Part shown: in pieces, positions 33,915 through 40,928 of the stretch
How positions within the stretch are numbered: the stretch's first letter is position 1
Layout of the letters: each line of letters opens with the position of its first letter
Source: Atopobacter phocae ATCC BAA-285
GTDB lineage: Bacteria > Bacillota > Bacilli > Lactobacillales > Aerococcaceae
Assembly (NCBI RefSeq): GCF_000526675.1
Contig: NZ_JAGN01000001.1
Location: 1 to 64,000, forward strand
Length of the DNA stretch: 64,000 nt
Direction of reading: 5' to 3'
Notes under the pieces: model-generated
The model's input: the letters and a program-made list of their open reading frames with translations, nothing else
Database searches by the model: none
What the model was told of the DNA's origin: nothing
Program-made: the position numbers and the translations under genes

Positions 33915-34103
33915 CTAAACTAATTTTTTCATTGCATAATCGTATAATCGTTCTGCAGTTTTGAAACTTAAATTATCGATTTTACGTTCACCACGACGTA
34001 AACCTGTTATAATTGATGTACTCAATCCTGTGTCAATTTGAATACGATAACTTGAAACTTCACTATCAATTAATTCTTGTAGTTTTTCTCTAATTTCTTT
34101 CAC
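33915..34103 (-). CDS. Small helix-turn-helix DNA-binding protein (Cro/XRE-like)
   Basis: 62 residues, starting at GTG 34103 after AAGGAG. The core SSYRIQIDTGLSTSIITGLRRGERKIDNLSFKTAERLYDY has the spacing of a Cro/C1-type HTH: helix 2 on YRIQIDTG, recognition helix on STSIITGLRRGE, and the L-x3-T-A-E-x-L-Y helix. There is no effector domain, so it should act as a simple dimeric repressor. Its own promoter (TTGTAT, 17 nt, TATAAT on the minus strand) contains a perfect 11-bp inverted repeat, which suggests autoregulation. It is divergent from the ABC exporter leader. Such short regulators occur in many lactic acid bacteria; the target is unknown. Confidence 0.8.
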   Translation of the reverse strand: MKEIREKLQELIDSEVSSYRIQIDTGLSTSIITGLRRGERKIDNLSFKTAERLYDYAMKKLV

Positions 34104-34474: not shown

Positions 34475-34508
34475 TTGACTTTTTTCGTATATTAGATTAG
34501 AATAATCT
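34475..34508 (+). promoter_or_regulatory. Promoter of the ABC exporter leader, with a dyad over the -10
   Basis: TTGACT (34475-34480), 17 nt, TAGAAT (34498-34503). The inverted repeat AGATTA-GAA-TAATCT (34494-34508) is centred on the -10 element, so a bound protein would block initiation. Confidence 0.7.
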
Positions 34509-34532
34509 TAATATTACTAGAAGGGGGGGATT

Positions 34533-34592
34533 ATGATGATTACATTAAATGAACAAGTTGTAATGATGCATCCCCCTAAATTTGAATCATAA
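34533..34592 (+). CDS. 19-residue leader ORF before the ABC exporter
   Basis: The ORF reads MMITLNEQVVMMHPPKFES and then stops. It follows a run of seven G (34523-34529) that serves as a strong ribosome-binding site. The G-run can pair with the C5 tract in its own CATCCCCCT (ATCCCCC, 34570-34576), and ATTACA (34539-34544) pairs with TGTAAT (34559-34564), so the whole ORF can fold into one hairpin with its start codon in an internal loop. A terminator follows 42 nt later, before the exporter gene. I infer a regulatory leader peptide in the manner of BmrB, which controls bmrCD of Bacillus subtilis; the sequences are not similar. Confidence 0.6.
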   Translation: MMITLNEQVVMMHPPKFES

Positions 34593-34633
34593 GATAGTTT
34601 ATCTGACCTACATAATAATAGTGTCATTTATTT

Positions 34634-34676
34634 AAAGAACTTTCCTTTTGAACATTTAGGGAAAGTTCTTTTTTTG
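34634..34676 (+). terminator. Attenuator terminator upstream of the ABC exporter
   Basis: A perfect 12-bp stem, AAAGAACTTTCC (34634-34645) with GGAAAGTTCTTT (34660-34671), and a tail of seven T. It sits between the leader ORF and the first exporter gene, with no promoter after it, so transcripts must read through it. Confidence 0.85.
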
Positions 34677-34705
34677 TTTAAAAACGAGTGATTATGGAGG
34701 ATAAA

Positions 34706-36439
34706 ATGAAAGATTTATTTCAAGCTTTATTGCCTTATATAAGCAAACATAAATTGAGGTATGTAGTAATTGCACTTTTTTTAATTTTGATGACGATTTT
34801 TTGGATGGTACCGCCACAAATTATTCGTTTATTTGTAGATGGTATAATTTCTCGTACGCTAACTAAAAACGATCAGATTTTATATGCAATGTATTTTTTA
34901 GGATCTATTATTTTAGTTTACATTGCTGATTTTATTTGGTCTTATTTAATTTTTTTAGGCTCAGAAGATTTGGGAATGGAACTAAAAAATAATTTAATGA
35001 AACAATATCTAAGTCGTAATGGGAATTTTTATAGTCTGTTTAAAAAAGGTGATCTGTTTACTCGGACGAGTGAAGATGTTGGTGTGATGCAAATGACAAT
35101 AGGATATGGATTAATGACTGCTTTTAATGCAAGTATTATGATCATTTTTGTGGTAGGAATGATGATTTTTACGATTTCACCATTATTAACCATTGTGTCA
35201 TTGCTACCATTACCATTTGTTTCTTATTTTACATATAAATGGGGAACATTAGTCGATCAATATTACACAAAAGCTCAACAAGCTATTTCGCAAATGAATT
35301 CCGAACTTTTAGAATTAATTGACGGTGTTCGAGTCGTTCGTGCTTTTAATATGGAGAAATCAACTAATCAGTCATTCAATCTAAAAACAACTGAGACGGT
35401 TGTGAAAAATAATCAAATTGCTGAAATGTCAGCACGTTTTGAACCACTATTTGAATTAGGCATGCGATTAAGCTATGTTATTTCTTTTATTTGTGGTGTG
35501 CTATTGATTCAACAAGGAAAAATTACAGTGGGTATGCTTGTTGGTTTTCAAGTGTATATTACAATGTTAATATGGCCAATGATTATGTTAGGCGATTTAA
35601 TAAGTGTGGCTCAACAGGGAAAATCGGCATGGCGCAGAATTGATGAAGTATTAGAGCAAAAGGAGACCAATCTTTATAACGGAAATCGTCAGTTAAAACA
35701 TTTTGATTCTATTGCCTTTAAAGACTTTTCATTTCAATATCCAAATAGCGAATCAACTGCTTTAAAACATATTAATTTTGAAATAAAAAAAGGCCAAACA
35801 ATAGGAATTGTGGGACGTACTGGAAGTGGAAAAACAACTTTAATTCAACAGCTTTTTTATACGTATCCTTATACTAATCAGGCTCCCTTTATTAATGATA
35901 TTCCTCTCAACGACTATCGTCGATCAAATGTCCGACAATTGTTTACATTTGTTCCACAAGAGCATACTTTATTTTCTGGAACCATTAGAGATAATTTAGT
36001 ATTCGGAGACGAATCATATAGCGATGAGGATCTCTACAAAGTGTTAGAATGGGCAGATTTTAAAAAGGATGTCCTAGCTTTTAATAGAGGATTAGATACG
36101 TTAGTCGGAGAGAAAGGAATGTCATTATCAGGTGGACAGAAGCAGCGTTTAGCCTTAGCACGTGCTTTCTTAAGATCATCCAGCGTTCTTATTTTAGATG
36201 ATGCTTTATCCGCTGTAGATGCGACAACAGAGCGTCAAATTATGCAATATTTGAATCAACATTTTGATGAGCAAACTAAAATAATTGTGACTCATCGACT
36301 CTCAGCATTAGAGCAAGCGGATTGGATTTTAGTGTTGGATGATGGTTGTATTGTTGAACAAGGAAACCATAATGATTTAATGAATATTAATGGATGGTAT
36401 AACGAACAATATATACACCAGCAAACGAAAGAGGTGTAA
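34706..36439 (+). CDS. Heterodimeric ABC exporter, subunit with degenerate catalytic site
   Basis: 577 residues from ATG 34706 (GGAGG 5 nt upstream; the GTG at 34688 is a poorer choice). A six-helix type IV exporter membrane domain spans residues 1-310. The nucleotide-binding domain has Walker A GRTGSGKTT, signature LSGGQKQRLALARA and Walker B VLILDDALSAVD. The residue after the Walker B Asp is Asp instead of catalytic Glu. Paired with the next gene it forms a BmrCD/LmrCD/EfrCD/PatAB-like multidrug exporter with one degenerate and one competent ATP site. It has a leader ORF and attenuator upstream. Confidence 0.92.
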   Translation: MKDLFQALLPYISKHKLRYVVIALFLILMTIFWMVPPQIIRLFVDGIISRTLTKNDQILYAMYFLGSIILVYIADFIWSYLIFLGSEDLGMELKNNLMKQYLSRNGNFYSLFKKGDLFTRTSEDVGVMQMTIGYGLMTAFNASIMIIFVVGMMIFTISPLLTIVSLLPLPFVSYFTYKWGTLVDQYYTKAQQAISQMNSELLELIDGVRVVRAFNMEKSTNQSFNLKTTETVVKNNQIAEMSARFEPLFELGMRLSYVISFICGVLLIQQGKITVGMLVGFQVYITMLIWPMIMLGDLISVAQQGKSAWRRIDEVLEQKETNLYNGNRQLKHFDSIAFKDFSFQYPNSESTALKHINFEIKKGQTIGIVGRTGSGKTTLIQQLFYTYPYTNQAPFINDIPLNDYRRSNVRQLFTFVPQEHTLFSGTIRDNLVFGDESYSDEDLYKVLEWADFKKDVLAFNRGLDTLVGEKGMSLSGGQKQRLALARAFLRSSSVLILDDALSAVDATTERQIMQYLNQHFDEQTKIIVTHRLSALEQADWILVLDDGCIVEQGNHNDLMNINGWYNEQYIHQQTKEV

Positions 36440-36441
36440 TA

Positions 36442-38199
36442 GTGAAACAAGTATTAAAACGGTTAATTAAGAGTATATATGATTTTAGAATAGGCTTTAT
36501 ATTAGGAATACTTGGAGTAATCCTTCTTACAGCATTAAATTTATGGATACCATTAATTGGGAGACGTATGATAGACGATGTATTGACACCTGTTAGTTTG
36601 GGACGTCCAATTAATACATCTTTATTAGTTAAATTGCTTGCGATGTATGTGGGAGTTAATATTATTTCAACTATTTTAAGTTATGCAAGTCGTTTAAAAT
36701 TACAGTACGTATCGAATGACATTGTTAAACAAATGAGAAATCAACTATTAGAAAAAATGAATCAATTGCCTGTTAAATACTTTGACGAACATCCTGCAGG
36801 GAGTATAGTATCAAGACTTATCAATGATACAGAAGTTTTGAGAAAAGACTTTTACGTTCGTGTAATTGCTGATTTATTAATTAGTTGCATTTCAATTATT
36901 GGAACATACGTGATGCTATTTTATTTAGATTTTAGATTAGCTACAGCGTTGTTACTTATATTACCAATTATTTTTATTTGGCAACATCTCTATACTAAAT
37001 ATATGACGCCCATTCAAATTAGTGTTAGGGAAAAAATTTCTGAATTAAATTCAAAAATTAACGAGTATTTGACCGGAGTCACTTTGATTCAGATGTTTCA
37101 AAAAGAGCAGCATTTTCTATATTTATTCAAAAAAAATTCGAAAGAAATTTTCGATTTGAATCGTCGGTCAATTTTTGCCCAATCACTTTTTGTTTGGGGA
37201 TTTGGAGATATTTTACGCGATGGAACCATTTTAATTTTTCTATTATATATCTCTCAAGGGTACATAACGGGTCAAATGGCAATTACTGCAGGCATGCTGT
37301 ATGTATTTATTGACTATATTAACCGTTTATTTGCACCGGTTCAAATGTTTGTAAATGGTATTTCAAATATTCAGCAATCGTTAGCAACAGGTAAACGAGT
37401 TTTTGAATTTATGGATGAGCCAGTTGAATCATTTGAAACTAATCGTTTTGAAATAAAAGAAGGCAAAGTCCGTTTTGAAGACATTATGTTTTCTTATAAA
37501 GAAGGCGAGCCCATACTAAAACGAATTAATTTGAATGTGCAATCGGGTGAAACAATTGGATTAGTGGGGACCACTGGCTCTGGCAAATCAACCTTACTAA
37601 ATTTACTGTTTCGATATTATGAGCCTGATTCAGGACAGATTTATATCGATGATATTCCAATTAGTGAAGTTAATCGTCATCAAATGCGACAAGATATGGC
37701 GATTGTTTTGCAAGATCCTTATTTGTTCACTGGAACTATTGCCTCTAATATTCGAATGAATCAAACAGATTTATCTGATGACGACGTTCGTAAAGTGTTA
37801 GAGCAAGTTGGAGCTGGTTATTTAATTGAAAATTATAAAGAAGGTATTTATCATGAAGTTCGTGAACACGGTGCAGATTTTTCAAGCGGTGAAAGACAAT
37901 TAATAAGTTTTGCACGTGCTTTAGCCGCAAAGCCTAAAATATTGATGCTAGACGAAGCGACTTCGCATGTTGATACAGAAACAGAACAAATTATTCAACA
38001 AGCAATGGACGTATTAAAAGAAGGACGCACTACATTTATTATTGCTCATCGACTATCTACTATTCAAAACGCTGATCGAATTGTTGTTATATCGAATGGA
38101 GAAATTGTTGAGATTGGAAAACACGAAGATCTTTTAAATAATCGTGGGATCTATTACACAATGTACATGAACCAAAAAGAGAAAAGTAGTTCCTGTTAA
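36442..38199 (+). CDS. Heterodimeric ABC exporter, catalytically competent subunit
   Basis: 585 residues, starting at GTG or ATG-like codon 36442, 2 nt after the preceding gene. A six-helix membrane domain, then Walker A GTTGSGKST, signature FSSGERQLISFARA and Walker B ILMLDEATSHVD with the catalytic Glu. The signature is altered (SSGE in place of SGGQ), as expected of the partner that faces the degenerate site. Together the two subunits should export hydrophobic drugs or lipids. Closed by a terminator. Confidence 0.93.
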   Translation: MKQVLKRLIKSIYDFRIGFILGILGVILLTALNLWIPLIGRRMIDDVLTPVSLGRPINTSLLVKLLAMYVGVNIISTILSYASRLKLQYVSNDIVKQMRNQLLEKMNQLPVKYFDEHPAGSIVSRLINDTEVLRKDFYVRVIADLLISCISIIGTYVMLFYLDFRLATALLLILPIIFIWQHLYTKYMTPIQISVREKISELNSKINEYLTGVTLIQMFQKEQHFLYLFKKNSKEIFDLNRRSIFAQSLFVWGFGDILRDGTILIFLLYISQGYITGQMAITAGMLYVFIDYINRLFAPVQMFVNGISNIQQSLATGKRVFEFMDEPVESFETNRFEIKEGKVRFEDIMFSYKEGEPILKRINLNVQSGETIGLVGTTGSGKSTLLNLLFRYYEPDSGQIYIDDIPISEVNRHQMRQDMAIVLQDPYLFTGTIASNIRMNQTDLSDDDVRKVLEQVGAGYLIENYKEGIYHEVREHGADFSSGERQLISFARALAAKPKILMLDEATSHVDTETEQIIQQAMDVLKEGRTTFIIAHRLSTIQNADRIVVISNGEIVEIGKHEDLLNNRGIYYTMYMNQKEKSSSC

Positions 38200-38471: not shown

Positions 38472-39173
38472 ATGCGAACGATATTACTAGTAGATGACGA
38501 AGAAGCCATCACAGATGTTATTCGACGTTATTTAAAACGAGAGGGATATGAAGTTTTAATCGCTAAAAATGGTAAAGAAGCCTTGAAATTATACAAGCAA
38601 CACCTGATTGATTTGATTATTACGGATATTATGATGCCAGAAATGGATGGTTATGAGTTTATTGATGAAGTTCTACAAATTAAGGAACGTGCGCCATTTA
38701 TTTTTGTAACAGCTAAGAATCAAGAACAAGATAAATTATATTCATTAATGATTGGTGCTGATGATTTTATAACAAAACCTTTTAGTCCAAGAGAGCTAAC
38801 TTTGCGCGTTAAAAATATTTTAAGACGAATTCACCCAGAAAATGAAAAAGTTCAAGGATTAATAGAGGTAGGCCCATTTGCACTAGATGAGTTAAGGCAT
38901 CAAGTATCGCTATATAATAGTATGCTCAATCTTTCAATTAAAGAATTTCATCTTTTAAAATTATTTTTAACAAATTTAGGGAGAGTATTTTCAAAATCAG
39001 AACTGTACGAACTAGTATGGGAAACAGAATATTTTGAAAGTGCCAATACTTTGAATGTTCATATTCATGAATTAAGAAATAAACTGGAGGTAGCTGCGAA
39101 TGGTCAAGCTTATCCACAAATAAAAACTGTTTGGGGCTTAGGTTATCGAATGGAGCAAGAAGAATGCGATTAA
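38472..39173 (+). CDS. Response regulator, OmpR/PhoB family
   Basis: 233 residues. Receiver domain with DDEEA near residue 8, phosphoacceptor Asp in LIITDIMMPEMDG near residue 51 and Lys in DDFITKPFSPREL. The C-terminal winged helix ends with NTLNVHIHELRNKLE and the wing IKTVWGLGYRME. It overlaps the histidine kinase gene by 10 nt. The preceding 200 bases contain no other gene and only weak promoter matches. Downstream genes on the same strand (ccdA, thioredoxin-like, msrAB) suggest that it regulates an extracytoplasmic thiol or methionine redox response. Confidence 0.92.
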   Translation: MRTILLVDDEEAITDVIRRYLKREGYEVLIAKNGKEALKLYKQHLIDLIITDIMMPEMDGYEFIDEVLQIKERAPFIFVTAKNQEQDKLYSLMIGADDFITKPFSPRELTLRVKNILRRIHPENEKVQGLIEVGPFALDELRHQVSLYNSMLNLSIKEFHLLKLFLTNLGRVFSKSELYELVWETEYFESANTLNVHIHELRNKLEVAANGQAYPQIKTVWGLGYRMEQEECD

Positions 39174-40234
39174 GAAATTTATTTATATTATCATTTATTA
39201 CTTCAAGCTTAGTTGTATGCATCATTATCGGATTTAGTATTAATCAAATGTATTTACATTCAAATGATGGTTATATATTAATGAGTATTACTTTTATTGC
39301 TAATATACTTGGTTCACTCATCGGCATGTATTTACTCAAAGGAACATTTAATTCCTTGAATCAATTGAGTGAACAAACAAAACAAATTAGTCAAAAATCA
39401 TTTGATTCAGTTAACTTAGTTCATGCACCGTATGAAATAAAAGAACTTGCCAAAGATTTTAATCACATGTCTAATACATTAGCGCAGACGTTTCAAGCGC
39501 TTGAAGTGAGTGAAAAAGAAAAGAAGCAATTAGTAGCACAATTGGGACATGATTTAAAAACTCCTTTAACCGCACTACGAAGTCAAATAGAAGCTTTAGA
39601 AGATGAAATGGTCGAGGTTGAAGAATTACAAGATATGTATCATAGTATGGCCCATCAAGTGTATCGTCTCACAACTTTGATTAATCAGTTAATGGAAATT
39701 AGTGTAATGGATAGTAAAGATACCACTGTATTAGAAGGGCAATTAAAAGAAATTTGGATAGATCAATTAATCGTCCAAGTATTATCGTCTTTTCAATTTT
39801 CACTAAAAGAAAAACAACAAGAGATAAAAGTAGATTTACCAAAAGAAGTGCCGGTAATTTGGACCAATGAATTGCACATCACAAGAATTTTGATGAATTT
39901 AATTGAAAATGCCATTAAATATTCGCCACATAAAACTACGATTCAATTAATTGTCTTTCATACGAATAAAGATTTAATTATTCAAGTTGTTGATCAAGGA
40001 GAAGGAATCCCATCTGAAGAACTACCGTATATTTTTGAATTTATGTATCGTGTAGAAAAATCACGTAATTCGAAAACAGGCGGGTCAGGAATAGGCTTGT
40101 ATATTAGTCAAAATTTAGCACATCAATTAGGTGGAAATTTATCAGTAAAAAGTCAAGTGGGTAAAGGAAGTGAATTTGAATTACGTTTACCTTTAAAAAA
40201 CGAAAATAGAAAAGAGGCACAAGATGGAGTTTAA
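39164..40234 (+). CDS. Sensor histidine kinase
   Basis: 356 residues from ATG 39164, which has GGAG 8 nt upstream inside the regulator gene. Two transmembrane helices (about residues 7-27 and 37-58) frame a very short external loop, then a HAMP-like region, the phosphoacceptor His in LVAQLGHDLKTPLTALRSQ, and the ATPase motifs NLIENAIKYSP, VVDQGEGIP and GGSGIGLYISQN. The tiny external loop suggests sensing within the membrane or through a partner. It overlaps ccdA by 11 nt. Signal unknown; redox stress is inferred from the operon. Confidence 0.92.
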   Translation: MRLRNLFILSFITSSLVVCIIIGFSINQMYLHSNDGYILMSITFIANILGSLIGMYLLKGTFNSLNQLSEQTKQISQKSFDSVNLVHAPYEIKELAKDFNHMSNTLAQTFQALEVSEKEKKQLVAQLGHDLKTPLTALRSQIEALEDEMVEVEELQDMYHSMAHQVYRLTTLINQLMEISVMDSKDTTVLEGQLKEIWIDQLIVQVLSSFQFSLKEKQQEIKVDLPKEVPVIWTNELHITRILMNLIENAIKYSPHKTTIQLIVFHTNKDLIIQVVDQGEGIPSEELPYIFEFMYRVEKSRNSKTGGSGIGLYISQNLAHQLGGNLSVKSQVGKGSEFELRLPLKNENRKEAQDGV

Positions 40235-40928
40235 TTTATTTTATATTGGTTCAGCTTTTATTGCAGGTATATTATCATTTTTATCACCGTGTATCTTACC
40301 ATTGTTACCTGTATATTTAGGTATTTTAGTAGATGATACAGGGACAGCAAGTTTTAAGTTCTTTAATTTAACCATCTATCGAAAACCATTAATTAAAACC
40401 ATTTGTTTTGTACTAGGATTATCTATAGTTTTTATCTCTTTAGGGATAGGTGCAGGACTCTTTGGACAATTGCTTAATCAACCGTATTTACATTTAGTAA
40501 TGGGTGCTTTAATGATTGTATTAGGTGCGCATCAAGCAGGTTTTATTCAATTAGATTTGTTACAACGGCAGAAATCAGTCCAATTTTCGTCAAGTGGGAA
40601 AGGTAATTATTGGAGTGCGTTTTTATTAGGATTAAGTTTTAGTTTCGGATGGACCCCTTGTATTGGGCCAGTACTTAGTGCGATTCTTGTGTTATCACTT
40701 TCAGGAAATGTATTTACAGGGGCATTACTAACTGCAGTTTATTCTTTAGGAGTATCTGTTCCATTTTTAATGTTAGCGATTGTTTCCAGTTGGTTAATTA
40801 AGCATCTTAATAAATTAAAAAAACATATGGGATTAATCAAAAAAATAGGTGGTATTTTAATTATCGTCATGGGTGTTTTAGTGATGTTAGGACAAGTTAA
40901 TTTATTGACAACACTTTTTATGAATTAA
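40224..40928 (+). CDS. ccdA: CcdA-type thiol:disulfide interchange membrane protein
   Basis: 234 residues with six transmembrane helices. The two redox cysteines are in SPCILPLLPVY (residue about 23) and FGWTPCIGPVL (residue about 150). It carries electrons from cytoplasmic thioredoxin across the membrane to external thioredoxin-like proteins. Its partner is encoded next, 47 nt downstream. Overlap with the kinase gene shows one operon. Confidence 0.94.
   Translation: MEFNLFYIGSAFIAGILSFLSPCILPLLPVYLGILVDDTGTASFKFFNLTIYRKPLIKTICFVLGLSIVFISLGIGAGLFGQLLNQPYLHLVMGALMIVLGAHQAGFIQLDLLQRQKSVQFSSSGKGNYWSAFLLGLSFSFGWTPCIGPVLSAILVLSLSGNVFTGALLTAVYSLGVSVPFLMLAIVSSWLIKHLNKLKKHMGLIKKIGGILIIVMGVLVMLGQVNLLTTLFMN

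Follow-up and report, generated by a model that had tools for sequence, protein, structure and literature searches.

The Shine-Dalgarno sequence of a leader ORF as the probable first arm of an attenuator upstream of BmrC-type exporter genes in Bacilli

In Bacillus subtilis, the exporter genes bmrCD are induced by ribosome-targeting antibiotics (Reilman et al., 2014; PMC4191407). The leader bmrB is described as having a GTG start and a length of 162 bp (53 aa), with its end 119 bp before bmrC; when its translation was blocked, basal read-through fell and induction by lincomycin was abolished, while a codon-changed bmrB showed lower read-through (PMC4191407). In the same study, fluorescence was undetectable when the predicted bmrB frame was fused in frame on the chromosome; the plasmid version fluoresced (PMC4191407).

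A similar arrangement is that of the Listeria leader Rli59 (Rfam RF01484, upstream of lmo1652), where a small ORF and a terminator likewise precede a BmrC homologue. According to a review (PMC8079631) covering the work of Dar et al. (2016), Rli59 loses termination under lincomycin, erythromycin or chloramphenicol; no detailed mechanism for it was found in the literature searched. The lincomycin-induced Rli53/lmo0919 and vmlR resemble the leader described here in combining a uORF with an anti-antiterminator, an antiterminator and a terminator, but their uORF has three codons, and in vmlR the Shine-Dalgarno sequence (SD) of the uORF is single-stranded outside the hairpin and the regulated gene encodes an ABCF protein. 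Attenuators of the trp/ilv type and ermC share with the present leader a ribosome-ruled, mutually exclusive pairing (1:2 / 2:3 / 3:4). However, segment 1 of the trp/ilv type is a leader-coding sequence with control codons and not the SD of the leader, and ermC hides the SD of the gene, not that of the leader.

The stretch of DNA analysed here (64,000 nt, hereafter the window) comes from the 1.67-Mb draft genome of Atopobacter phocae. In the window, a short ORF with a strong SD and an intrinsic terminator precede a BmrC/LmrC-type exporter gene. The locus is thus like bmrB-bmrCD, which is antibiotic-induced and needs leader translation, in having a leader ORF, a terminator and an exporter of the BmrC/BmrD type. 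Its parts are the following:

34475-34503, forward strand: promoter-like TTGACT-17-TAGAAT, 10 of 12 consensus matches, with a predicted transcript start near 34510
34523-34532, forward strand: segment 1, the SD GGGGGGG (34523-34529) plus ATT (sequence, folding)
34533-34592, forward strand: leader ORF of 19 codons, MMITLNEQVVMMHPPKFES and a stop codon (sequence reading)
34539-34564, forward strand: inner helix, ATTACA (34539-34544) with TGTAAT (34559-34564) (sequence, RNA folding)
34570-34581, forward strand: segment 2, the anti-SD ATCCCCCTAAAT, codons 13-17, whose partner is segment 1 or 34654-34661
34634-34645, forward strand: segment 3, 5' arm of the intrinsic terminator (folding, -15.6 kcal/mol)
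34654-34661, forward strand: SD-like AUUUAGGG, terminator loop and start of the 3' arm, the antiterminator partner of segment 2
34659-34676, forward strand: segment 4, 3' arm of the terminator and T-run (sequence, folding)
34706-36439, forward strand: exporter subunit A, ATG at 34706, closest solved relative BmrC (YheI) of B. subtilis
36442-38199, forward strand: exporter subunit B, a half transporter of the BmrD/LmrD type

The seven-G ribosome-binding site, the 19-codon ORF and the pairings GGGGGAT/ATCCCCC and ATTACA/TGTAAT, which an initial annotation of the locus had pointed out, are all read directly from the sequence; the leader codons CAU-CCC-CCU are complementary to the SD of their own ORF (ATCCCCC at 34570-34576). 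The promoter that it had placed upstream is present, but such a site alone is not above chance, since the promoter scan as a whole returned 10 promoter-like sites against 7.9 expected. The terminator before the exporter is also present (34634-34671, with its T-run), with 14 bp predicted instead of the 12 proposed; a simple terminator scan, limited to loops of up to 8 nt, missed it on account of its longer loop. Both hairpins are predicted when the RNA of 34510-34720 is folded (z = -3.10). Before transcription arrives at the C-tract, the SD is predicted to be about 80% unpaired; in the full leader, its mean probability of being unpaired is about 0.13-0.14. Neither the leader of the window nor those of 20 relatives matched any Rfam family.

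As to the genomic setting, exporter subunit A is 43% identical in the one relative of the same genus that was compared, and the layout is absent from the paralogous ABC exporters of both genomes. On the reverse strand, a 62-aa ORF (33915-34103) pointing away from the exporter encodes a small helix-turn-helix-like protein with no NCBIfam match, and a 6S RNA lies at 2171-2360 (Rfam RF00013, 73.8 bits). On the 3' side of the exporter (38472-40928, forward strand) are a response regulator and, named by eye, a histidine kinase and a CcdA-like membrane protein.

Taken alone, the self-pairing of the window leader is marginal: the SD:ORF pairing has p = 0.149 against the dinucleotide-shuffled ORF, and 115 of 2000 codon permutations fold equally well (p 0.058). 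A run of seven G readily finds partners. Regions upstream of the A-subunit gene were drawn from the family, the order, 80 named loci (alignment-based contig scan) and the class. The leader ORF was picked by SD strength and not by pairing, and was found for most of these regions, the search giving none in L037, L040, L059, L061 and L062. Pairing between SD and ORF was significant at p <= 0.05 in 63 of 96 leader candidates and at p <= 0.01 in 32 (median p 0.02), about one third of the leaders not being individually significant; with one leader per named genus, 32 of 44 genera were significant. Among 204 ordinary genes taken as a control from the window and the named loci, only 10 (4.9%) reached significance (median p 0.53). 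It is the relatives, together with this control, that make the self-pairing of the window convincing.

Own SD and own ORF pair at -17.3 kcal/mol, compared with -12.5 for mismatched partners (0/10,000 permutations, z -15.5, 76 leaders), and the bases 3' of the SD core, which are less constrained by ribosome binding, still pair preferentially with their own ORF when considered alone (0/10,000, z -6.0). It should be noted that relatedness was only partly removed by thinning, so that these permutation counts are not strict probabilities, and that the set of 76 was obtained by removing near-identical peptides and nine calls that visual inspection had made doubtful. Such a removal could bias the outcome in favour of pairing; it played no part in the counts of 63/96 and 32/44. 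The anti-SD starts at a median of 44 nt past the start codon and ends about 14 nt short of the ORF end. Matching changes are seen, for example, within Bacillus (GGAGGGTTTGC/GCAAACCC; GGAGGTATGG/CCATAC; GTCATG/CGTGAC with GGAGGGTAT/ATACCTTCC), and between genera the leader peptides differ wholly while the nucleic-acid pairing is kept.

Judged from the sequences compared, therefore, the SD and the ORF end co-vary across the relatives, and self-pairing of SD and anti-SD is typical of leaders that precede BmrC-type genes across Bacilli, those of the B. subtilis group and of Listeria among them. Concealment of the site by the end of its own ORF, which the initial annotation had regarded as unusual, is thus the common arrangement for these pumps. 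A search upstream of BmrC/LmrC-like genes in related genomes, as the annotation had suggested, recovers the hairpin pairing but not the leader peptide; its remark on the difference between the peptide and BmrB is correct but tells little, given that the peptides are not conserved between genera and that the annotated BmrB frame appears to be a different one.

The initial annotation had also reported that no antiterminator helix could be found by eye. One does exist: CCCUAAAU (34574-34581), within the same anti-SD segment, pairs with AUUUAGGG at 34654-34661 (p 0.02). Over 61 loci, anti-SD and terminator pair at -12.9 kcal/mol when matched and at -10.0 when mismatched (0/10,000 permutations, z -8.3), while the 5' part of the ORF, used as a control, gives z -0.5 against the terminator. 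In Bacillales the anti-SD pairs with the 5' half of the terminator, where part of the SD is often repeated (L129, for instance, has GGAGGGTTACGA in its SD and CAGGTTACG in its terminator), which results in the classical 1:2 / 2:3 / 3:4 layout. In Lactobacillales it pairs around the terminator loop, with a partner that varies by locus; the whole terminator gives z -3.7, and neither half alone is clear. In L126 the pairing of anti-SD with terminator was no better than chance. The spacer was also considered as an antiterminator and was discarded, its matched pairing being weaker than the mismatched one. The covariation check proposed at the outset thus has a positive outcome for both pairings of the anti-SD, and conservation, co-variation of SD and ORF end and the antiterminator pairing support, at the level of sequence, the earlier suggestion that ribosome progress through the hairpin ORF decides termination.

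Two further features were observed between leader and exporter. In L074, L075, L078, L095, L104, L121 and other Bacillaceae/Planococcaceae loci, the exporter gene is directly preceded, some 30-100 nt before gene A, by another small ORF, which is led by an SD, has about 17-19 codons and ends in (E/D)(S/G)(G/D). In L038, L041, L067, L069 and L119, two tandem terminator-like hairpins separate the leader from gene A.

The competition between the two partners of segment 2 was followed by calculating partition functions for growing transcripts. With a ribosome over the SD of the window leader, 6.9 bp between anti-SD and terminator are predicted at RNA ends 34661-34664, compared with 0.1-0.4 bp in free RNA, and formation of the terminator is delayed; without a ribosome, 1:2 persists and the terminator builds up. 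Likewise, for 61 loci with 75% of the terminator transcribed, the anti-SD:terminator pairing amounts to 1.9 bp in free RNA and to 7.3 bp with a ribosome on the SD. The complete terminator beats the antiterminator at equilibrium in the window and in nearly all loci, and the switch must therefore be kinetic and dependent on polymerase timing. The anti-SD, which begins near codons 13-15, stays free as long as the P-site of the ribosome has not passed about codon 9, but the SD is covered as well only while the ribosome sits on the first few codons. When the P-site is placed at codons 5-9 of the window leader, 1:2 can form again around the ribosome in the model, so that only early stalls should induce.

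The leader is therefore likely to be a ribosome-mediated transcription attenuator in which the SD of the leader ORF itself forms the first arm and segment 2 alternates between segment 1 and the terminator. The SD would be accessible only during synthesis of the first ~65 nt of RNA, so that few ribosomes, perhaps one, would load on each transcript. If that ribosome ran through, or if none loaded, 1:2 would close and the terminator would form. If it were held at the early codons, for instance through the action of a translation inhibitor, the SD would be covered by it and segment 2 would stay free; segment 2 could then catch the emerging terminator, and the polymerase would read through into the pump genes. 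For A. phocae, we infer ribosome stalling, the response to drugs and single loading from the predicted competition and from the elements, conservation and co-variation that can be read in the sequences.

Alternatively, a specific nascent peptide might arrest the ribosome at a defined codon, as in ErmCL, the SD:anti-SD helix being incidental. Drug-dependent arrest of this kind is known for other leaders, and some of the present ones do contain charged R/K-x-R/K stretches (RLK in Listeria, RGK in the B. subtilis group). However, the peptides are those that change completely from genus to genus as the pairing is maintained, and the known members respond to several unrelated drugs, which makes peptide sensing unlikely. 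It is even less probable that the hairpin merely limits synthesis of the leader peptide and has no part in termination: this would agree with the predicted sequestration of the SD in the complete leader, but would leave the co-variation of the anti-SD with the terminator unexplained.

Translation attenuation of the ermC type, with the anti-SD hiding the SD of gene A, was examined as well and rejected. The anti-SD can reach that SD in a few loci (as in the minimum-energy fold of L086), but matched pairing of the two is not above mismatched pairing (z +1.0), and 85 of the 87 loci examined have a terminator between the leader and gene A; we consider this reading very improbable. No greater credit can be given to the possibility that the pairing in the window arose by chance with a G-rich ribosome-binding site and is unrelated to that of the relatives. 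The p values of the window alone (0.06-0.15) would allow it, but the place, the layout and the two alternative pairings are all as in the relatives.

An attenuator with the SD as first arm can be compared with what is published on bmrB. The sequences of the B. subtilis group share the SD:anti-SD pairing (GGAGGGTTTGC/GCAAACCC); in contrast, the terminator, antiterminator and anti-antiterminator that have been published for this leader are placed within nt 60-162 of the annotated bmrB, and the SD is not involved. The effects of blocking bmrB translation on basal read-through and on lincomycin induction fit the model, and the result with the codon-changed bmrB could agree with it if the changes hit segment 2. 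Two sequences, L215 and L219, carry an ORF with exactly the start, length and position of the published bmrB. Compared with the ATG ORF, which has the strong SD (in L215, MPRNLRVYQTVSYWRGKPYVLFN), this type of GTG ORF is shifted to the +1 frame. All 12 sequences of the group (L213-L222, L126, L183) have an intact SD-led ORF; 5 of them keep the GTG frame, at 52-61 codons, and in the other 7 it is absent or broken. Among these sequences, in which B. subtilis 168 was not identified, this strongly suggests, but does not prove, that the annotated bmrB frame is not that of the SD-led leader ORF.

Rli59 also pairs with itself, through AAAGGAG/CTCCTTT at the extreme end of the ORF and GGAATGG/CCATTTC, and the gene that follows it is 32% identical to the A subunit of the window. 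In the order sample, 15 genomes of a single genus carried Rli59, while the class sample gave none, and the Rfam covariance model RF01484 (rli59) matched neither the window nor its genome.

Pairing of SD and anti-SD was described nowhere in the literature that our search found, which consisted largely of openly accessible papers. The arrangement is probably a new variant of ribosome-mediated attenuation, in which the SD of the leader is the first arm; it is widespread, and its peptides drift. Because SD and anti-SD co-vary, self-pairing can serve to recognize such leaders in genomes even when sequence similarity is of no help.

In dozens of genera of Bacilli, this layout probably lets an antibiotic-slowed ribosome switch on the pump. 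We lean somewhat towards the broader view that these leaders are Bacilli-wide antibiotic sensors in which the signal is the presence of a ribosome on the start site, and not a peptide or a control codon, with the SD as first arm and the ORF read about once per transcript at most. If this is true, a corollary would be that the annotation gives bmrB, the textbook leader, the wrong frame, and the present data suggest that the reading frame used in the published work deserves re-examination. The model would also offer a mechanism for Rli59 and, for this widespread family of multidrug exporters, one simple rule by which many unrelated ribosome inhibitors may be sensed without a conserved peptide.
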